Below are positions 33,119 through 42,526 of a stretch of 64,000 nt of DNA, one piece after another. The position numbers were made by a program, and so were the translations under genes. Source of the stretch: an uncultured Shimia sp. (GTDB lineage Bacteria > Pseudomonadota > Alphaproteobacteria > Rhodobacterales > Rhodobacteraceae); assembly GCF_947493595.1 (NCBI RefSeq), contig NZ_CANLRL010000009.1:62001-126000 (forward strand), read 5' to 3'. How positions within the stretch are numbered: the stretch's first letter is position 1; every line of letters begins with the position of its first letter. The notes under the pieces are model-generated. The model saw only the letters and a list, made by a program, of their open reading frames with translations. It ran no database searches and was not told the DNA's origin.

Positions 33119-33223
33119 AGTCTGCGCGAGGGCGGAGGAGAACCATTCGGATTTTGTCAGGTCATCCCGACCTGATCCCGCAAGTCACAGAACACCCCTG
33201 ACGCAAAAAAGGTAGTGAGAAAC

Positions 33224-35440
33224 ATGGCTGATAAAAAATCGCCCGACATATTGTATACCATTGTAGACGAAGCGCCTGAGTTGGCCTCCGCCTCCTTCCT
33301 GCCGATCATTCGCAAGTTTGTGTCCGCCGCTGGTATCACCGTTGGCACCCCGGACATTTCCCTTGCCGGTCGCATCATTGCCACCTTCCCTGAAAACCTG
33401 ACTGCAGAGCAGCGTCAATCTGATGAGCTGGCCGCGCTGGGCGAATTGGTGAAAACACCGGACGCCAACGTCATCAAGCTGCCAAACATCTCCGCCTCCG
33501 TGCCACAGCTGGTCGCGGCCATCGAAGAGCTGCAGGGCCAGGGCTACAACATCCCGTCCTATCCAGAAGACCCGCAGTCTGACGAAGACAAAGCCATCCG
33601 CGCGCGTTTTGACGGCATCAAAGGCTCCGCCGTGAACCCGGTACTACGTGAAGGCAACTCTGACCGCCGTTCCGCCCGCGCCGTGAAAAACTACGCTCAG
33701 AACAACCCACATTCCATGGGCGCCTGGGAAAGCTCCAGCAAGACCAAAGTCAGCTCCATGCCGGGCAACGACTTCTACGCCAACGAAAAATCCGCCACCA
33801 TCTCTGAGGCGCAAGCCGGTGATGCGAAGATCGAATTTGTTGGCAAAGACGGTTCCGTGACCGTGCTCAAGGACAGCTACCCGCTGGCCGCAGGTACCAT
33901 CGCAGACGCCACTTTCATGTCCGCCAAAGCGCTGGGCGCCTTCCTCGCGGACGCGATTGAAGACACCAAAGCCGACGGCACCATGTTCTCCCTGCACATG
34001 AAAGCCACCATGATGAAGGTCTCCGACCCGATCATCTTTGGCCACGCGGTAAAAGCATGGCTGGGTCCGGTTTGGGACGCCCATGGTGAGGCCATCGCCG
34101 CCGCTGGCGGCTCTCCAAACTCCGGTCTGGGTGCTGTTCTGGCTGCGATCGACACGCTCGACAACGCCGACGCCATCAAATCCGAGATCGCCGCGCTGGA
34201 CCGTCCGTCCATGTACATGGTCGACAGCGACAAAGGCATCACCAACCTGCACGTGCCGTCCGATGTGATCATCGACGCCTCCATGCCAGCCGTGATCCGC
34301 GCAGGCGGCAAGGGCTGGGACGAAGCCGGCAACAAAGGTGACACCAACTGTGTGATCCCGGATCGCTGCTACGCGACTGTCTATGACGAAACCGTCAACT
34401 TCTTCAAAGCCAATGGCGCGCTTGACGTGACCACCGCAGGCTCCGTCGCCAACGTCGGCCTGATGGCGCAGAAAGCCGAGGAATACGGCTCTCACCCAAC
34501 CACGTTTGAGGCCCCAGCCGCGGGTTCCATCCGCATCGTTCTGGAAAACGGCGACGTGCTGCACTCTCACGATGTGGACACCGGCGACATCTGGCGCTCC
34601 TGCACCGTGAAGAAAGCCCCAATCGAGAACTGGATCGAACTGGCGATGGACCGTCAGCGCCTGACCGGGTCCGAGGCGATCTTCTGGCTGGACGCAAACC
34701 GCGCCCACGATGCCGAGCTGATCAAATATGTGACCCCGGCGCTCGCGGCGGCTGGCAAAGCTGACCTGTTCCAGATCATGGCGCCTCGTGAGGCCACCGC
34801 ACAGTCGCTCAAAACCATCACCGCCGGCAACGACAGCATCGCCATCACCGGCAACGTGCTGCGTGACTACCTGACCGATCTCTTCCCGATCCTCGAGCTG
34901 GGCACCTCCGCCAAAATGCTCTCCATCGTGAAGCTGATGAAAGGTGGCGGCCTGTTTGAAACCGGTGCCGGTGGCTCCGCACCAAAGCACGTGCAGCAGC
35001 TGGTCGAAGAAAACCACCTGCGCTGGGACTCCATGGGCGAGTTCTGTGCCCTTGGTGAAAGCCTGAACTTCCTCGCGGATGTCAAAGGCAACGCCAAAGC
35101 AGGTGTTCTCGGTGTGGCAGCTGAAGCCGCAACCCAAGGCATTCTGGACGACAACCGTTCGCCATCGCGCAAAGTCGGTCAGCCAGACAACCGCGACAGC
35201 CACTACTGGTTCGCCCGCTATTGGGCCGAGGCACTGGCAGCACAGTCTGACGACGCCGACCTAGCAGCCGAATTCGCAGGTGTGGCCAAAGCGCTCGCAG
35301 ACGGCGAAGAAGCCATCCTGGCCGAGCTCGCTGCGGCCCAAGGTCCAGCAGCTGATATTGGCGGCTACTTCCGCCCATCCGTGGAGCTGAAAGCCAAAGT
35401 CATGCGCCCCAGCGCCACCCTGAACGCGATCATCGACTAA
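33224..35440 (+). CDS. icd: Isocitrate dehydrogenase, NADP-dependent, monomeric
   Basis: The enzyme makes 2-oxoglutarate, CO2 and NADPH from isocitrate. At 738 residues it is the large monomeric type, not the ~420-residue dimer. Diagnostic runs are [21 protein letters not shown] near the start, [20 protein letters not shown] near 130, [19 protein letters not shown] near 245 and [18 protein letters not shown] near 600. The ATG at 33224 gives [12 protein letters not shown]; a GTG three codons upstream is unlikely. It is flanked by terminators and is a single-gene unit. Confidence 0.97.
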
Positions 35441-35466
35441 GGCTGACCCGATAGGTTGAAACAAGG

Positions 35467-35495
35467 AAGCCGCCCTGAAAGGGGCGGCTTTTTTG
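35467..35495 (+). terminator. Rho-independent terminator of icd
   Basis: AAGCCGCCC (35467-35475) pairs exactly with GGGCGGCTT (35482-35490), followed by TTTT. Confidence 0.95.
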
Positions 35496-35568
35496 TTTTG
35501 AGGCCAGCCACTTCACTAGTGGGAATGTACGTTTACAGTCGTTTAGTCCGCGCCTTTTGAGGGATAGC

Positions 35569-36141
35569 ATGTTGAAGTTATGTGTGATGGTCGCCGCAGT
35601 TGTCTTGGCACTGCATCCCGTGAAAGGGTTTGCTTCTGACGTTTCCCCAGCACGAGTGCTAATGGCAGCGGTGGTTTCGGATGATCCTCACACCACAAGG
35701 AAAGCAGGCGAATTGCTTTCGGTTTTTCGCACAATTGGCCAAATTCGCGAAACTGTTGTTTCGAACGAACCTTGGGTGGCTGCAAAACCGAATTTTGTTT
35801 TTGCATCAGGGGACGATTTCATCGTGCAAGGGCGACTAGCAGTTGATGCCTTGACTGAGTTTGATCCAAAAGTGGCGGAGTTCATTTTGGAACTTCCAGC
35901 CAACTCAGGGCACTGCTTTGTACAAAGCTTTAGTGTTGGCTTAGAAAAACGCTGGGTTCTTTTGGTAGTTCACAGTGTAGACAACGAGGCTCCAGAGTAT
36001 ATGAGCCAATGCCTCACTGCTGGTTTGTACAAATTTGTGAAGGGCAGCTTAGACGACTTTGTTCCATCCAAATGGCGAGAGGCCTATGTGGGACTCTTGT
36101 CTGAGAGCCAATCGACCTTCAGTTCAGTGGGAGTTAACTAG
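35569..36141 (+). CDS. Secreted protein of unknown family (paralogue of the convergent gene at 36224)
   Basis: I do not recognise the family. The 190-residue protein has an N-terminal hydrophobic signal (MLKLCVMVAAVVLALHPVKGFAS, likely cleaved after Ala22) and is probably periplasmic. It carries two cysteines in the mature part, Cys116 and Cys148, and an ending WREAYVGLL at 169-177. The convergent gene at 36224-36763 shares these: FxF and a Gly 12 residues later, CFV, VDN, a second Cys, and WRxxYxxLL exactly 21 residues after it. The patch looks AT-richer than its neighbours. GAGGGA at 35559-35564 precedes the ATG. Confidence 0.7.
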   Translation: MLKLCVMVAAVVLALHPVKGFASDVSPARVLMAAVVSDDPHTTRKAGELLSVFRTIGQIRETVVSNEPWVAAKPNFVFASGDDFIVQGRLAVDALTEFDPKVAEFILELPANSGHCFVQSFSVGLEKRWVLLVVHSVDNEAPEYMSQCLTAGLYKFVKGSLDDFVPSKWREAYVGLLSESQSTFSSVGVN

Positions 36142-36223
36142 GTCAAGCATTGGACGGACATTTACGTCGCCGCAAACCTGAACCAAGCTGGGTTTCGTAA
36201 GGCGGGCTAAGTTTCCTATGGCG

Positions 36224-36763
36224 CTACTCGTTGACAGCCCCAGCCTGCAACAGATCAAGATACGTCTTCCTCCAAGATTGCTGCGGATCGTCCGGTACGC
36301 GCTCCGTGACATGATACGACAGGCCGACCGCAAAACACTGTAGTGATCCATTCTGATTGTCGACAGTTGTGCTGATAACAAATGTTACCGGCCAGCCATC
36401 TTCGGTTGGATACGTCGAAACAAAGCACTCGTCGCTTTCTGAATGCTCACTGAGCAGTTGTTGATTTACGCTGCCATCGATCCCTTTCAATACCGTCTTC
36501 GCGATTTTTCCATTTGAAATTGCATCGCGCTTTTGCAGAAAAATAAATTGCGAGACCTGCCGACCATGTGTGCCAAACGTGCCGTCGTAGACGAGAGTAT
36601 ATGTATCTAAGAGGTTTATCATATTCTCAGCAAATGCTTCGTTGTCTGCAGCAACAAAATATCGCAACGGTGAGGGGGAACGCACCGTTTCAGAGATGGC
36701 AAGAGTTTTTAACCCCAACATCAGAAGGCTCGCGATCACAATCTTCGCTTTCCAAGATGTCAT
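36224..36763 (-). CDS. Secreted protein of unknown family (paralogue of the convergent gene at 35569)
   Basis: I do not recognise the family. The 179-residue product has a signal-like start (KIVIASLLMLGLKTLA, then SETV) and two cysteines, Cys113 and Cys143. It ends in WRKTYLDLL at 164-172. Shared features with the facing gene include FIF..G (73-85), CFV, VDN at 134-136 and the fixed 21-residue step from the second Cys to the Trp, so the two are homologues in inverted orientation. They are far diverged, which argues against a recent duplication. The start at 36763 follows GAGG. Role unknown; a disulfide-bonded periplasmic protein is likely. Confidence 0.7.
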   Translation of the reverse strand: MTSWKAKIVIASLLMLGLKTLAISETVRSPSPLRYFVAADNEAFAENMINLLDTYTLVYDGTFGTHGRQVSQFIFLQKRDAISNGKIAKTVLKGIDGSVNQQLLSEHSESDECFVSTYPTEDGWPVTFVISTTVDNQNGSLQCFAVGLSYHVTERVPDDPQQSWRKTYLDLLQAGAVNE

Positions 36764-37000
36764 CAGCCGGCCTCAATTCTGTTTTTTGTAGTCTCGCTGG
36801 GCACCGTATTGTGTCTGCTTCCATTGCGCTAGCAATATTGACGTGCTTCAACCTCCGGTTCTGGGGATCAGCTTCCCCCCATTCCCATGTCGCATCCCAT
36901 CCAAAACCGGCACGCTGCCCCAGTAACATGTCCGGTTTTTGAGCTTCTGTGCCAATGCAGAAGGCCCTATCTCAACCGGACCTTGGCACTGGGACCAACC
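36764..37000. other. Gap without a supported gene
   Basis: This stretch must hold the promoter of the leftward secreted-protein gene and perhaps that of the microprotein genes. I see no strong dyad, repeat or terminator in it. Confidence 0.5.
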
Positions 37001-37141
37001 ATGGGGCGTTTTCAAAAATTCTGTGAGAAGCACGATTTCTGCCGCAACATCCTGCTGGCCGCCATGTTTTTCGGTATCGCCTATGGCGTGGCGTCATTGG
37101 TGATTTATGCGGTTCCCAACACAATCGACAACCCGCCTTGA
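37001..37141 (+). CDS. Membrane microprotein with CxxHxxC motif, copy 1
   Basis: The 46-residue product has a short N-terminal head with Cys8, His11 and Cys14 (CEKHDFC), one membrane helix at about 17-38, and a Pro-rich tail ending in DNPP. It aligns without gaps with the 45-residue product at 37288, sharing Cys8, His11, Cys14, Ala20-Ala21, Phe23, Val30-Ala31, Val34-Ile35, Ala37, Pro39 and Pro45. That conservation in a 46-residue frame is the main evidence that both are real genes. The ribosome site is weak. The C/H spacing suggests metal or heme binding, which is inference. Confidence 0.6.
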   Translation: MGRFQKFCEKHDFCRNILLAAMFFGIAYGVASLVIYAVPNTIDNPP

Positions 37142-37287
37142 AGCCCATTCGCGGGTCCATCTGGTTTTGAGTGCCAATTGCCTTTGGCTGCTTTTGGCGC
37201 CGCATCCCAAATCACTGTCGCGATTTCTGAATGCAGTCTCTGTTGGCGCTACCATCTGTAGCGTGTCATCAACACGCGAGAACAGAC

Positions 37288-37425
37288 ATGAAACACATAA
37301 CCGCCTACTGCCGTCGGCACTCTTGGTGCGGCGATTTGAAAGTTGCAGCCCTCTTCCTTATTCTCTCAGCCATTGTTGCCTTTGTGGTGATACAGGCCTT
37401 TCCGACCCCTGTGATTGGTCCCTGA
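37288..37425 (+). CDS. Membrane microprotein with CxxHxxC motif, copy 2
   Basis: The 45-residue product has Cys8, His11 and Cys14 (CRRHSWC), one membrane helix at about 17-38 (LKVAALFLILSAIVAFVVIQAF) and a Pro-containing tail. It is a tandem homologue of the protein at 37001, 146 bp upstream, and the two align end to end without gaps. GAGA at 37278-37281 is a weak ribosome site. The gene is convergent with the lrp gene, whose stop lies 40 bp further. No known family is recognised. Confidence 0.6.
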   Translation: MKHITAYCRRHSWCGDLKVAALFLILSAIVAFVVIQAFPTPVIGP

Positions 37426-37465: not shown

Positions 37466-37930
37466 TCACACCGGCACCTGCAACCCCGCTTTCACCCGAT
37501 CAATCACCACATTGCTGTGAAACCGCCGGATGTTGGGATTGTCGTTGAACACGTGGCGGCTGAACTCCTCATAGGCGGTCATATCCGGGGCGGTCACCAC
37601 CAGAATAAAATCCGCCTGACCGGTGACGTAGTAGCATTGCTGCACATCATCGAGCTTGAGCATCGAGCGGCGGAACTCATCAAGCAGGTCCGTGCGCTCG
37701 CGCTCCATCTCCACCTCGACCACAAAGGTCATTGGCCGCCCCACGGCTTTCGCAGAGACCACAGAGATATCCGCCTCCACGATCCCTTCATCGCGAAACC
37801 GCTTCAGCCGCCGTTGCACAGCGGAGCGCGAGATGCCTGCGATCTCCCCTAACTCATCCGCCGTCAGTCGGTTGTTCTTCTGAATGGCCGTAAGCAGGCG
37901 ACGGTCGATGTCATCCAAATTGGTGGCCAT
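37466..37930 (-). CDS. Lrp/AsnC-family transcriptional regulator
   Basis: The 154-residue protein has the N-terminal helix-turn-helix (LDDIDRRLLTAIQKNNRLTADELGEIAGISRSAVQRRLKRF) and the RAM effector domain (VQQCYYVTGQADFILVVTAPDMTAYEEF). It diverges from the catabolic cluster starting at 38118 across 187 bp, so it most likely controls that cluster, as DoeX (AsnC type) does in ectoine degradation clusters. The ligand is unknown, and would be an amino acid or a pathway intermediate. Confidence 0.9.
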   Translation of the reverse strand: MATNLDDIDRRLLTAIQKNNRLTADELGEIAGISRSAVQRRLKRFRDEGIVEADISVVSAKAVGRPMTFVVEVEMERERTDLLDEFRRSMLKLDDVQQCYYVTGQADFILVVTAPDMTAYEEFSRHVFNDNPNIRRFHSNVVIDRVKAGLQVPV

Positions 37931-38117
37931 GTTGGGGCTCCTTTCGGGAAACTGCGGGCACTACGCTCAGCCTGTGGCGATTTCAGAGCATTCTGCCCAA
38001 ATCTTTGCGCTAGCCTTTGGTTCTGAACCCTCTCCTGTCAACCCTGCACAGCCCATTGCCTTTCCCCGCAACCCCGCTCACTCTGACCGTCAAAGAAATC
38101 TCAGTCGGACTCATGCC

Positions 38118-38534
38118 ATGCCTTTTAGTTTCGAAAATCACCACAACGTTGTCTTTGGCGACTGTGATCCGGCTGGCATTGTCTACTACCCCAACATCTA
38201 CCGCTGGATGGACGGCACCTTTCAGCGCTTTTTGCAGCAATATGGCGGCCACGCCGCTGTCTGTGAACACCTCGACGCCGTGGGGTTGGGCCTGATGGAA
38301 ACCCATGCCAAATACCGCCGCCCACTGACCGATGGCGACGCATTGACCATCCGCATGGAGATCGTCGAGTGGACCGCCAAATCCTACCGCCTGGTCCATC
38401 GCGGTTATGTTGGTGATGATCTGGCCTTTGAAGGCACCGAGGTCCGTGCGTTGTTTGAAAATCGCGACGGCCGCATGCGGGCAGGGGAGGTCACTCGTCT
38501 CAAATCTTACCTCGAAAGCCACTCTGAGCCATGA
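38118..38534 (+). CDS. Hotdog-fold acyl-CoA thioesterase (4-hydroxybenzoyl-CoA thioesterase / YbgC type)
   Basis: The 138-residue protein has the family active-site signature VVFGDCDPAGIVYYPNIYRWMD, where the Asp is the catalytic residue of the 4HBT group. Later strands (AKYRRPLTDGDALTIRMEIVEWTAKSYRLVHR) fit the fold. The ATG at 38118 gives the usual short head; an ATG five bases earlier is out of frame. Its stop overlaps the next start by four bases (ATGA), tying it to the diaminopropionate ammonia-lyase-like gene. The acyl-CoA substrate is unknown, and its presence in an amino acid type cluster is noteworthy. Confidence 0.85.
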   Translation: MPFSFENHHNVVFGDCDPAGIVYYPNIYRWMDGTFQRFLQQYGGHAAVCEHLDAVGLGLMETHAKYRRPLTDGDALTIRMEIVEWTAKSYRLVHRGYVGDDLAFEGTEVRALFENRDGRMRAGEVTRLKSYLESHSEP

Positions 38535-39583
38535 CCGAAACCCTGCAAAACCCACACCGCGGCCACGGCCTGCCGACGCGCCAATCCGAGACCCTCCCGA
38601 GCCGCGACGCCACCGCCGTTGCCAAGCTGCTCGCCCTGTGCCCAGCCCATTCCGAGACCCCACTGCAAGACATGGCGGATCTCTCCACCACCTTGGGCGT
38701 GCACAGCTTACACATCAAAGACGAGCGCTCCCGCATGGGGCTTGGCTCCTTCAAAGCTCTCGGTGCCGCCTACGCCATCGCTTATGATGCGGCCCGCACG
38801 GAACCCAACGACTGGGCAACCGCTTTAACGGGCCGCACCTATGTCACCGCCTCGGCGGGCAACCACGGCATGTCCGTCGCCGCTGGCGCGCGTGTGTTTG
38901 GCGCAAAAGCCGTGATCTACCTCTCCCACACAGTGCCACAAGCCTTTGGCAAACGTCTGGAGGCGCAAGGCGCCACAGTGGCTTGGGCCGGTGACGACTA
39001 CGAAGCCAGCATGGAGGCCGCCGCGCAAGCCGCCAAAGACAATGGCTGGACTTTGCTCTCTGACAGCACATGGGACGGGTATGAAGACAGCGGCTACCGC
39101 GTCATGGAGGGCTATTTGCAAATGGCCTCTGAAGCCGCTGCGCAAATCCCCGCGCCACCCACCCACATCTTTCTACAGGCTGGCGTAGGCGGCCTCGCTG
39201 CTGCCGTCGCGGCCTATGCCCGCACCACGTGGGGTGACGCGCCACATGTCACCGTGGTGGAACCCGAAGCCGCCCCCGCGCTGATTGAATCCATTCGTGC
39301 TGGCCAATTGGTCGACACCACCGGACCTGTGTCCGATATGGGGCGCTTGGATTGCAAAACGGCCTCCATGGTGGCGCTCAACGGGCTTGCGATGGATGCG
39401 GACAGCTTTGTCACCATCTCCGAGCAGGAGGCGCAGGACACAGTGGACACGCTCAAGTCCCATGGCATCGCCAGCACGCCCTCCGGCGTTGCCGGTGTCG
39501 CCGCCGCGCTCCTGAAACGTCCCGATCTGCCGACTGACGCCCGCGTTCTGTGTTTCGTCTCCGAAGGGCCAGAAGATGCCTGA
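38531..39583 (+). CDS. Diaminopropionate ammonia-lyase-like PLP enzyme
   Basis: The 350-residue fold-type II PLP protein has the diaminopropionate ammonia-lyase signature HIKDERSRMGLGSFKALGAAYA with the PLP Lys75, SAGNHG at 108-113 and the glycine loop LQAGVGGLAAAV. DPAL splits 2,3-diaminopropionate to pyruvate and two ammonia. The E. coli and Salmonella enzymes are about 50 residues longer, so a related substrate (a threonine-, serine- or diamino-acid) is possible. The gene overlaps the thioesterase gene by four bases and the M24 gene by eight, so the three are translated together. Confidence 0.78.
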   Translation: MTETLQNPHRGHGLPTRQSETLPSRDATAVAKLLALCPAHSETPLQDMADLSTTLGVHSLHIKDERSRMGLGSFKALGAAYAIAYDAARTEPNDWATALTGRTYVTASAGNHGMSVAAGARVFGAKAVIYLSHTVPQAFGKRLEAQGATVAWAGDDYEASMEAAAQAAKDNGWTLLSDSTWDGYEDSGYRVMEGYLQMASEAAAQIPAPPTHIFLQAGVGGLAAAVAAYARTTWGDAPHVTVVEPEAAPALIESIRAGQLVDTTGPVSDMGRLDCKTASMVALNGLAMDADSFVTISEQEAQDTVDTLKSHGIASTPSGVAGVAAALLKRPDLPTDARVLCFVSEGPEDA

Positions 39584-40733
39584 CCGTGGCTTTCCACCAG
39601 CAGAGTTCCGCACCCGCATCACCCGCCAGCAAGCCGCCATGACAGACGCAGGCGAAACTACACTCCTGCTGACCTCACAGGCCGACATTTTCTACACCAC
39701 AGGCTTCCTCACCCGCTTCTGGGAAAGCCCCGCCCGCCCGTGGTTTGTGATCATCCCCACGCAAGGCGACCCCATCGCCGTGATCCCTTCCATCGGTGCG
39801 GACCTGATGTCCAAAACCTGGCTCACCGACATCCGCACATGGGATGCGCCTTTTCCCGGCGACGACGGCGTTAGCCTGCTCTCCCAAACCCTTGCTGACA
39901 TCGTGCCCGAGGCCGGCACCATCGGCCTGCCCATGGGCCTGGAAACCCACCTGCGCATGCCGCTTGGGGATTACCTCCAGCTCACACAAAACCTCGCCCC
40001 GCGCCGCTTTGTCGACGCCACCAACACCGTGCAACGCACCCGTGAAATCAAATCCGATGGCGAAGTCGCCAAAATCCGCGCCGCCTGCGCCATTGCAGAC
40101 CGCGCCTTCTCCCGCATCACTGAATACGCCTCTGAAAACAACACTCACGGTCAAGTCTTCCGAGACTTTCAGCGTATTCTCTTAGAGGAGGGGGCTGATT
40201 GGGTCAGCTATACAGCAGGCGGCGCAGGGCAGGGCGGCTACGGAGATGTGATCTCTCCGGCAGGTGATGAACGCCTCATGGCTGGCGACATCCTCATGCT
40301 CGACACCGGCGCGGTGCTGGACGGCTACTTCTGTGACTTTGACCGCAACTTCGCCATCAGTCACGCCGACGACGCCGCCAAACGCGCTTATGATCAGCTC
40401 TATCTAGCCACCGACCACGTGCTTGCCACCCTGCGCCCCGGCCACAAGGCCTGCGATGTGCACGCCATGTTTGTCGATAGCCTGACCAAGCAAGGCGCCA
40501 CGCCCGGTGGCGGTCGCCTTGGCCATGGTCTGGGCATCACGCTCACCGAATGGCCAAGCTTCACGCCCCATGACCACACTGAGCTGCGCGCAGGCATGGT
40601 GCTCACCTTGGAGCCGGGCGTCGAAATCGCCCCCGGCCTGTTTCAAGTGCATGAAGAAAACATCGTCCTGCGCGACACCGGCCCGGAGCTGCTCTCCTCC
40701 CGCGCCGCTGCAACCCTGCCCATTCTGAGGTAA
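39576..40733 (+). CDS. M24-family metallohydrolase (Xaa-Pro peptidase / ectoine hydrolase DoeA-like)
   Basis: The 385-residue pita-bread protein has an N-terminal creatinase-like domain up to about 155 and the catalytic domain after it. All five metal ligands are seen: Asp243 and Asp254 (DTGAVLDGYFCDFD), His317 (GHGLG), Glu346 (LEPG) and Glu360 (HEEN). Relatives include Xaa-Pro aminopeptidase, creatinase and the ectoine hydrolase DoeA. Context (an AsnC-type regulator, DPAL-like and EutA-like enzymes) favours a small-molecule amidohydrolase over a peptidase. The start overlaps the preceding gene by eight bases. Confidence 0.85.
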   Translation: MPDRGFPPAEFRTRITRQQAAMTDAGETTLLLTSQADIFYTTGFLTRFWESPARPWFVIIPTQGDPIAVIPSIGADLMSKTWLTDIRTWDAPFPGDDGVSLLSQTLADIVPEAGTIGLPMGLETHLRMPLGDYLQLTQNLAPRRFVDATNTVQRTREIKSDGEVAKIRAACAIADRAFSRITEYASENNTHGQVFRDFQRILLEEGADWVSYTAGGAGQGGYGDVISPAGDERLMAGDILMLDTGAVLDGYFCDFDRNFAISHADDAAKRAYDQLYLATDHVLATLRPGHKACDVHAMFVDSLTKQGATPGGGRLGHGLGITLTEWPSFTPHDHTELRAGMVLTLEPGVEIAPGLFQVHEENIVLRDTGPELLSSRAAATLPILR

Positions 40734-40738
40734 CACCC

Positions 40739-41482
40739 ATGGAGACTGTCCCTTTCACCCTTGGCACCCCGGCGTCCGGTCAGACCACTCTGGGCCTGAT
40801 CGTGCTCAAGTTTGACGAAACGCTGGAGCAGGACTTTCGCCGTCTGTTCCCGTCCCGCGATCTCTCCATCTACACCAGCCGGGTGCCCTCGGACCCGGAA
40901 GTCACACAAGACACGCTGCTGGAAATGTCCAAAACCCTGCCTGCCAGCGCATCCCTTTTCCCGCCCGCCGCAAACTTCGATGTAGTTGGCTACGGCTGTA
41001 CGTCTGGCACAACCATGATTGGCGCAGAGAAGGTTGCTGATCTGGTCAAACAAGGCGTGCAAACGCCCGCCGTGACCGATCCGCTCACGGCCTCAATCGC
41101 CGCCTGCAAAGCCTTGGGCATCACCCGCCTTGGCATGGTCACGCCCTATGTCGAAAGCGTCTCCCTGCCGGTGAAACAGGCCTTTGAGGCCGCAGGCATT
41201 GCCGTGCCGCATCTGGTGTCTTTTGGCGAGGCAGGCGAAGAAAACGTCGCCCGCATTGATACCGCTTCTGTGAAAGCCGCCGCCTTGCAAGTGGGGCATC
41301 AAGACGTGGATGCGGTCTTTCTCAGCTGCACCAACCTGCAAACCTTGGATGTGATCGACAGCCTAGAGGCCGACCTCGACAAGCCGGTGTTTGGCAGCAA
41401 TCTTGCCCTCGCCTGGCACATGGTCAAACTCTCTGGCGCAAAACTGGCCGCCAACGCCCCTGGCCGTTTGCTCAAAAGCTAA
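40739..41482 (+). CDS. EutA-like Asp/Glu racemase superfamily protein (maleate isomerase / arylmalonate decarboxylase type)
   Basis: The 247-residue protein has the two cysteine boxes of this superfamily: Cys87 in GYGCTSGTT and Cys197 in FLSCTNLQTL, with GMVTPYVESV between. Maleate cis-trans isomerase, arylmalonate decarboxylase and EutA of the ectoine/hydroxyectoine clusters belong here. The pair of cysteines is typical of racemase or isomerase chemistry. It starts five bases after the M24 gene and is part of the same unit. A racemase or isomerase for a hydroxy- or diamino-acid intermediate is the best guess. Confidence 0.8.
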   Translation: METVPFTLGTPASGQTTLGLIVLKFDETLEQDFRRLFPSRDLSIYTSRVPSDPEVTQDTLLEMSKTLPASASLFPPAANFDVVGYGCTSGTTMIGAEKVADLVKQGVQTPAVTDPLTASIAACKALGITRLGMVTPYVESVSLPVKQAFEAAGIAVPHLVSFGEAGEENVARIDTASVKAAALQVGHQDVDAVFLSCTNLQTLDVIDSLEADLDKPVFGSNLALAWHMVKLSGAKLAANAPGRLLKS

Positions 41483-41563
41483 AAACGTCCACTCCCTGTC
41501 GGTATCAGGCCTGCTGGCGCAATTTCTCCCACGCAGTCTGACCTTAACCAAAGGAGGACAGCT

Positions 41564-42526
41564 ATGAAAATCGGCTTCATCGGATTGGGCAATGTCGGCG
41601 GCAAACTCTCCGGCAGCCTGCTGCGCAACGGCAAAGACCTTTATGTGCATGATCTCAACCCCGATCTTGTGGCGGAGAAATGCGGGGCCGGGGCTAAACC
41701 CGTGTCCGGTCCCGCCGAAATGATGCGCCTCTGCGATGCGGTCATCACCTGCCTGCCATCCCCCGCGGCCTCCGATGCGGTCATGCAAGAGATGCTGCCT
41801 GAAGTCACTGAGGGCAAAATCTGGATGGAAATGTCCACCACGGATGAGGCCGAGGTCAAACGCCTCGGCGCATTGGTGATCGCACGTGGCGGCGCGGCGG
41901 TGGATTGCCCGGTCTCCGGCGGTTGCCACCGCGCCGACACCGGCAACATCGCCATCTTCGCAGGCTGTGATCGCGACACCTTTGAGCGCATCCTGCCACT
42001 CCTGACTACCATGGGCCGCCGTATCCTGCACACCGGCCCGCTTGGTTCCGCTTCCGTTTTGAAGGTGGTGACCAACTACCTCGCCACGGCGCATCTCGTG
42101 GCCTCCGCCGAAGCGCTCACCACCTGCGCCGCCGCCGGTATGGACCTCAACACCGCCTATGAGGCGATCCGCATCAGTTCCGGCAACTCCTTCAGCCACG
42201 AAACTGAGAGCCAAGTCATTCTGAATGGCTCGCGCGATATCTCCTTCACCATGGATCTGGTCAAAAAGGACATCGGCCTATTCCAAGACGTCGCCGACAG
42301 GGCAGGGGTGCCGTTAGAACTCAACCCGCTGATGATCTCGATGTTTGACGACGCCATTGCCCGCTTTGGCGCGCGCGAGCTCAGCCCCAACATCATCAAG
42401 CGGCTGGAAGAGGCCACCGGCCTGTCCGTCCTCGCTCCCGGCTTCCCCCCGGAGATGCTCGATGATGAGCCGGAAGAGCCGGGGTATGAGGTGATCCCGA
42501 CTGGCACGCAACGCCCGCAGACTTAA
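41564..42526 (+). CDS. 3-Hydroxyisobutyrate dehydrogenase family oxidoreductase
   Basis: The 320-residue protein has the NAD(P)-binding GFIGLGNVGG at 4-13, the substrate-binding DCPVSGGCHRADTGNIAIFAG and the catalytic Lys in GSASVLKVVTNYLATAHLVASAEA. The family oxidises beta-hydroxy acids to semialdehydes or keto acids (3-hydroxyisobutyrate, tartronate, glyoxylate reductase type). The C-terminus is about 25 residues longer than usual, rich in Glu and Pro. AAGGAGGA precedes the start. The gene lies 81 bp after the EutA-like gene and is probably the last gene of the cluster. Confidence 0.88.
   Translation: MKIGFIGLGNVGGKLSGSLLRNGKDLYVHDLNPDLVAEKCGAGAKPVSGPAEMMRLCDAVITCLPSPAASDAVMQEMLPEVTEGKIWMEMSTTDEAEVKRLGALVIARGGAAVDCPVSGGCHRADTGNIAIFAGCDRDTFERILPLLTTMGRRILHTGPLGSASVLKVVTNYLATAHLVASAEALTTCAAAGMDLNTAYEAIRISSGNSFSHETESQVILNGSRDISFTMDLVKKDIGLFQDVADRAGVPLELNPLMISMFDDAIARFGARELSPNIIKRLEEATGLSVLAPGFPPEMLDDEPEEPGYEVIPTGTQRPQT

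Follow-up and report, generated by a model that had tools for sequence, protein, structure and literature searches.

The question raised by this stretch of Shimia DNA (the window, 64,000 nucleotides in its entirety) is what two very short open reading frames, arranged in tandem beside a gene for an Lrp/AsnC-type regulator, encode and what their products might do. An earlier note on the sequence had reported them as a pair of 46 and 45 residues, and their coordinates, their common plus strand, and their spacing of 146 bp were all verified. The two genes, herein named S1 and S2, are listed below together with the neighboring features that the text refers to.

36849-36888, plus strand: element A, CAACyTCCGGTTyTGGGGA-N13-ATTCCCAT, ahead of S1; putatively promoter-like
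37001-37141, plus strand: S1, predicted 46-aa single-pass membrane microprotein with a CxxHxxC head; found in six genomes, including the window's own
37227-37255, plus strand: element B, CTGAAT-N17-TACCAT, ahead of S2; putatively promoter-like, identified by eye in aligned S2 and S3 upstream regions
37255-37286, plus strand: predicted stem-loop preceding the start codon of S2, MFE -11.2 kcal/mol, z -1.97; alternatively part of a DNA operator
37288-37425, plus strand: S2, predicted 45-aa single-pass membrane microprotein with a CxxHxxC head; found in five genomes, including the window's own
37466-37930, minus strand: lrp/asnC-family regulator (Pfam AsnC_trans_reg 2e-18, plus HTH_24), convergent with S2

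Aligned without gaps, S1 and S2 agree at every position previously listed (C8, H11, C14, A20, A21, F23, V30, A31, V34, I35, A37, P39, and P45) and additionally at M1. Earlier in-frame ATGs exist upstream of both genes and would lengthen the open reading frames to 84 aa for S1 and 64 aa for S2. The upstream frame is interrupted by stops in both S1 and S2 of genome G018, though not in all orthologs, and in the ortholog alignment protein conservation sets in at the starts given above.

A profile of 15 rows finds 15 family copies in seven of 25 Shimia genomes at E 2.4e-20 or better: two each in G000, G007, G010, G018, and G021, four in G016, and one in G024. Because these rows are themselves part of the search profile, the search was repeated with each paralog group held out, and all 15 copies were again recovered at E 1.1e-18 to 1.3e-9 (Z=130000), the G024 copy at 5.6e-13. 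Since the held-out profiles recover every paralog group, the likeness of S1 and S2 is beyond chance. Orthologs of S1 in five other genomes share 52-89% identity with it. With S1 as the sole query against 60 relatives, the copies of S2 and of a third type, S3, match at E 3.4e-5 to 0.52; four of the 17 matches at E 0.01-1 are members (G024, the S3 copies of G010 and G016, and a further S3 copy of G016 on contig C15, termed G016:C15). Matches to G043 and G047 in the same range were translated and dropped as members. Three matches of the profile within the genus (G008, G005, and G003; E 0.01-0.08) were dropped because they are partial, covering 20-22 positions, and stand in frames of 99-173 aa. 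The seven carrier genomes differ by an lrp synonymous divergence of 0.36-1.63; hence, homologs exist beyond very close strains, and an objection along those lines fails.

Outside Shimia, neither 394 family genomes, representing each genus about once, nor 292 genomes of the order from 112 genera yielded a convincing homolog, with the best approximately 18 and 24 candidates per genome scored, respectively, a depth at which a very diverged relative could escape. Seven weak matches outside the genus from the family search (E 0.001-0.01) were all translated and rejected, as they resemble pieces of other frames or of larger proteins. For any of the 15 members, Pfam, NCBIfam, and PHROGs give no match better than E 0.01, PADLOC gives none up to E 10, and among solved structures in the PDB the best E is 1.3, with no relative. 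The absence of a named family with this pattern, as asserted before, is thus borne out in these five collections. Among the matches listed in the open-access literature, no paper deals with such a CxxHxxC peptide by its title or abstract opening, none pairs Shimia with a small membrane protein, and none concerns the S1/S2/S3 family by its title. Within the searches made, and judged from sequence, S1, S2, and S3 are three distinct paralogs of a Shimia-restricted microprotein family.

The members are 45-46 aa in length, with the exception of the S2 of G016 (41 aa). All 15 copies contain one strongly hydrophobic segment at residues 17-35, which, together with the structural models, supports by prediction the single membrane helix that had been proposed. 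The net charge is 0 to +4 before this segment (positive in 14 of 15 copies) and -1 to +1 behind it; in 13 of 15 copies, the former is higher by 2 or more. This higher charge ahead of the helix implies a head that faces the cytoplasm; the N terminus is therefore probably cytoplasmic, with a short C-terminal tail outside. AlphaFold2 predicts helices at 2-10 and 13-37 for S1 (15-row alignment, mean pLDDT 77) and at 3-10 and 13-37 for S2 (single sequence, mean pLDDT 80). The helix break at residues 11-12 is common to both models, where scores over the first ten residues are no higher than 67-68. An amphipathic N-terminal helix with a face formed by residues 4/7/8/11/14 was considered and rejected: the hydrophobic moments of residues 2-17 compared with shuffles give p 0.08-0.95, with none of the 15 copies below 0.05.

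The cysteine–histidine–cysteine head, which the earlier note had taken as fixed, is not. It is complete (C8-H11-C14) in ten of 15 copies, with C8 present in 10/15, H11 in 11/15, and C14 in 12/15. Complete heads occur in five of six S1 and five of five S2 copies, H11 and C14 being kept in all six S1. The S3 copies read M-Q-W or L-Q-W instead, the S1 of G018 reads L-H-C, and the G024 copy L-N-C. Six of the seven carrier genomes contain at least one copy with the complete motif, and no further conserved cysteine is present across the 15 copies. On these alignments, the C-H-C head is a feature of S1 and S2 and not of the whole family.

S1 and S2 sit in a 2.03-kb gap between the gene at 33215-35440 (idh), which we take to encode a monomeric isocitrate dehydrogenase, and the convergent lrp. 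In all seven carrier genomes, S genes occupy the gap next to the 3′ end of this same lrp. An lrp ortholog (E<=1e-70) is present in 11 of 25 Shimia genomes, among them all seven carriers, so that S genes occur in 7/11 lrp-bearing and 0/14 other genomes (Fisher p 0.0007, relatedness ignored). A profile at maximum sensitivity revealed no diverged copy around lrp in the four genomes that have this gene but no S genes (G003, G011, G013, and G015), nor in the vicinity of the XRE-like genes in G001, G004, G008, and G017, the best score at such S-free loci being 5.3 bits. Tandem arrays of two to three units are found in six of the seven genomes and a single unit in the seventh. The order is S1-S2-lrp in G000 and G007, S1-S3-lrp in G010, S2-S1-S3-lrp in G016, and S2-S1-lrp in G018 and G021; in G024, an XRE-like gene separates the single S copy from lrp. 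The fourth copy of G016 is the S3 on C15, away from the lrp locus.

The XRE-like regulator (assigned by eye) of 89-94 aa is convergent to lrp in several species (L031:3245-3517, L032, L034, L089, and L090) and ends in a cysteine-rich tail such as CTSGCCG or SCSCCG. It is found also where S genes are absent, and a 5′-truncated version occurs in L033. As an obligatory partner of the S genes it was dismissed: at E<=1e-5, it is present in ten of 25 genomes, comprising 4/7 carriers versus 6/18 noncarriers.

The genes are under selection at the codon level. A dN/dS well below 1, which had been suggested as a check, was obtained for S1 and S2: the values are 0.05-0.30 for S1 (ten of 15 pairs) and 0-0.26 for S2 (eight of ten pairs), with the other pairs of both types saturated at synonymous sites. 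The three S3 values are 0.22, 0.26, and 0.64, the last from a pair that involves the translocated G016:C15 copy. Values this low show purifying selection. The comparison genes lrp (0.01-0.08, 21 pairs) and the PALP enzyme gene (0.06-0.10, 15 pairs) lie lower, so the microproteins are constrained yet faster-evolving. The view of S1 and S2 as old paralogs under selection, and not a recent duplicate, is upheld; they are distant paralogs.

The slot beside lrp holds S2 in G000 and G007 and S3 in G010 and G016, and herein synonymous divergence drops. Between G000 and G007, dS is 0.10 for S2 against 0.62 for lrp and 0.42 for the PALP gene; between G010 and G016, it is 0.16 for S3 against 0.47 and 0.65, respectively. 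Compared in windows of 60 columns, the two genomes G000 and G007 share 98-100% identity between 37215 and approximately 37395, as against 58-92% over the S1 unit and 65-97% over lrp. The simplest reading of this locally low dS is a recent exchange at the slot next to lrp.

Each type carries its own upstream block. Element A occurs once per genome in six of 25 Shimia genomes, always upstream of S1; its length is fixed at 40 nt in all six S1 genomes, and its middle 13 nt are variable. A slightly shorter pattern retrieved four records only from a scan of genome contigs. As a conserved RNA structure, element A was rejected, with an RNAalifold covariation of +0.17, two-sided change in two of 18 pairs, and z-scores of the S1 leaders from -2.28 to +1.56; the fixed spacing and variable middle fit a promoter better. 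Element B is weaker ahead of the G016 S3 and missing from the G016:C15 copy. Its CTACC core also appears in five of ten groES upstream regions from nine Shimia genomes (by eye) and does not indicate a sigma factor. We infer from these patterns that elements A and B are promoters. All eight S2 and S3 starts contain GCGAGrACAGACATGAA, which recurs with one mismatch at a single other site (another gene, in G011). Among 394 genomes scanned for it, only G000 has it, and all 392 from other genera lack it. Both the S1-type and the S2/S3-type block are missing from the G024 copy.

The start sites of S2 and S3 are predicted to be folded. In 44-nt windows (-35 to +9), the invariant ACAG arm is paired in the predicted fold of all eight leaders, with left arms that differ between them (z -0.91 to -4.57). 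The six distinct intact leaders, leaving out the near-identical G007 leader and the G016:C15 copy, have z -1.7 to -4.6, compared with a mean of +0.24 for 59 control starts of seven neighboring genes (minimum -2.65, one of 59 at or below -1.37); the Mann–Whitney p of 1.5e-7 is optimistic, because leaders and controls are related sequences. When the 5′ end is cut back so that 29, 27, or 25 nt remain ahead of the ATG, the group mean z becomes -2.0, -1.55, and +0.26, respectively (p 1e-4, 9e-4, and 0.5); a start at 27 nt loses the stem in one of the six leaders, and with a start at 25 nt it is gone. The stem would hence exist only if transcription starts approximately 27 nt or more upstream of the ATG. 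If TACCAT is the -10 element, the transcription start would lie near 25-29 nt before the ATG, a close call for the stem. The stem is weaker in the G016:C15 copy (z -0.91) and the G024 copy (z -1.27). None of the six S1 starts shows a stem (z -0.23 to +2.06), and longer S1 leaders yielded no consistent structure.

The same nucleotides can be read at the DNA level, a reading that concerns control alone and is compatible with any function of the S genes. TGTCTGT-N15-ACAGACA would then be an operator over the transcription start that is bound by a repressor, with no RNA control involved. The repeat is perfect (7-15-7) in four of the eight S2/S3 leaders and overlaps or abuts the expected transcription start. 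In the other four (G000, G007, the S2 of G016, and the S3 of G016:C15), however, the left arm is altered, and three of them (G000, G007, and the S2 of G016) keep an alternative pairing despite this. Genomes G000, G007, and G010 contain no match at E<=1e-5 to the XRE-like gene of the locus, which therefore cannot be the general repressor. An operator of this kind is a serious alternative, though less likely than not.

What the peptides do is tentatively best explained, at a probability of roughly 0.35, by a tightly controlled, membrane-acting role that resembles that of type I toxins. Their size, a topology like that of HokB, the tandem arrangement, the swapping, and start sites that may be gated all tilt the balance toward toxin-like peptides. 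Ldr toxins likewise occur as tandem units. In common with HokB, TisB, LdrD, ZorO, and DinQ, the S peptides are shorter than 60 aa with one predicted helix and a possibly occluded start site. The excerpt of PMC8309996 describes membrane type I toxins as generally below 60 aa with one predicted helix, and a hydrophobic peptide of this length with one membrane helix is what is predicted for the S family. The same excerpt puts the positive N terminus of HokB in the cytoplasm, as predicted for the S peptides, and gives the C terminus of most such toxins as predicted cytosolic and positively charged, with HokB as one exception in topology. Unlike in most type I toxins, the C terminus of the S peptides is predicted to be outside and has a net charge of -1 to +1.

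A toxin-like sequence of events might run as follows. S1, S2, and S3 would be genus-specific, single-pass peptides of the inner membrane, each type under its own conserved upstream block, and for S2 and S3 a local stem at the mRNA 5′ end would keep the start sites shut. A signal that opens the promoter or the stem would set off a burst of peptide synthesis, after which the peptides may work, like HokB and other type I toxins, either directly on the membrane or on a partner within it. The C-H-C head would tune the S1 and S2 peptides and not be their core function; this head, present in most S copies, is not known from type I toxins.

We do not count the S peptides among the type I toxins, since the search for an antitoxin came up empty and there is no similarity to named families. 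Unlike for type I toxins, no antisense RNA was found and no significant library similarity: none of the 15 members resembles a named type I toxin family in Pfam, NCBIfam, PHROGs, or PADLOC; a consensus promoter scan, weak in that it missed elements A and B too, gave no minus-strand promoter; Rfam at gathering cut-offs returned only a tRNA; and exact complementarity between S1 and the S2 leader in G000 is no greater than in shuffles. All three of these antitoxin scans are weak. A bolder and very improbable version makes the interchangeable membrane peptides beside lrp a new toxin–antitoxin-like module in one genus, in which the 5′ stem would hold off translation and lrp read-through into the S genes would serve as the antisense antitoxin. 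The consensus scan placed no terminator between the convergent lrp and S2 in the window, and read-through of this kind would account for why the S genes are so strictly linked to the 3′ end of lrp.

Nearly as likely as a toxin-like peptide is a nontoxic modulator. CydX, AcrZ, and MgrB are small membrane proteins that bind and tune larger membrane proteins, and the S peptides, equally small and single-pass, could be accessory or regulatory subunits of this kind. The predicted helix–break–helix, conserved residues along the membrane helix, the invariant proline at the helix exit, the strong codon constraint, and S1 starts that resemble those of ordinary genes all suit a subunit. However, unlike CydX, AcrZ, and MgrB, the S genes have no co-located partner operon, and their tandem paralogs are swapped between species. 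No partner gene travels with them, since the neighbors between idh and the S genes vary and lrp points the opposite way, and the patchy presence (7/25) and the swapping of S2 and S3 fit a subunit of a core complex poorly.

Metal, heme, or redox chemistry through C8, H11, and C14 at the cytoplasmic membrane face is unlikely; the earlier note had suggested such chemistry for either the cytoplasmic or the periplasmic face. As a role of S1 and S2 only it retains some room, the motif being complete in five of six S1 and all S2 and kept in at least one copy in six of seven genomes, and the modeled break at 11-12 falls between the three residues. As a family-wide role it is not supported, because CxxHxxC is complete in only 10/15 and S3 has M/L-Q-W; counted by ligand, M, L, Q, N, or W replace all three in 3/3 S3, two in G024, and one in the S1 of G018. 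The ligands, moreover, number three with no conserved fourth cysteine, and no metal or heme gene was recognized by eye among the neighbors. Ferredoxins of the [3Fe-4S] type are soluble and have a further Cys-Pro ligand. Those with CxxHxxC share the three-residue spacing of the S1/S2 head (in the excerpts of PMC6237146 and PMC9868604). Unlike them, the S peptides have no further conserved cysteine and enter the membrane helix right after the head; neither a fourth cysteine ligand in the 15 copies nor the ferredoxin fold was found, the models being helical and single-pass. Phage-spread peptides for prophage-type exclusion or competition are very improbable. The alleles are patchy and swapped, and approximately 640 bases separate the extra G016:C15 S3 copy, which comes with the last 34 lrp codons, from a gene that by eye is endolysin-like. 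Against this, that copy lacks element B, IMG/VR yielded no relatives (one pattern and three alignment scans), and none were found in phages (S1 query only), plasmids (S2 protein; DNA), or PADLOC, with E 0.01 as the best in PHROGs.

With this locus, a bounded, Shimia-restricted family of membrane microproteins is added that is strongly constrained at the codon level, comprises three diverged paralogs, and visibly exchanges alleles at a single chromosomal slot, and it is directly testable in cultured marine bacteria. It also advises caution, as a striking three-residue motif common to two paralogs need not be the core of a family.

Several observations concern the surroundings. The piece on C15 of G016 (L101:12243-12513) consists of the last 34 codons of lrp and the S3 copy without element B; it lies past the endolysin-like gene, and part of a nearby gene is duplicated there too. 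The idh–lrp gap (35441-37000; L029-L034 and L087-L089) is a variable spot whose gene content differs by species, including by eye SDR plus AraC-type, sulfotransferase-like, ATPase-like, and methyltransferase-like genes. In the window, it holds a convergent pair at 35557-36141 (plus strand) and 36224-36763 (minus strand) with signal-peptide-like starts (by eye). The two products have no Pfam match and no counterpart at E 1e-3 in ten other loci compared, and they are related to each other (29% over approximately 100 aa, E 3e-8 to 7e-8). On the other side, 37466-42526 comprises lrp and genes for a thioesterase, a PALP enzyme, an M24 peptidase, and Asp/Glu racemase-like and hydroxyisobutyrate-dehydrogenase-like proteins, a cluster with an AsnC regulator that we presume to resemble an ectoine-type catabolic cluster.
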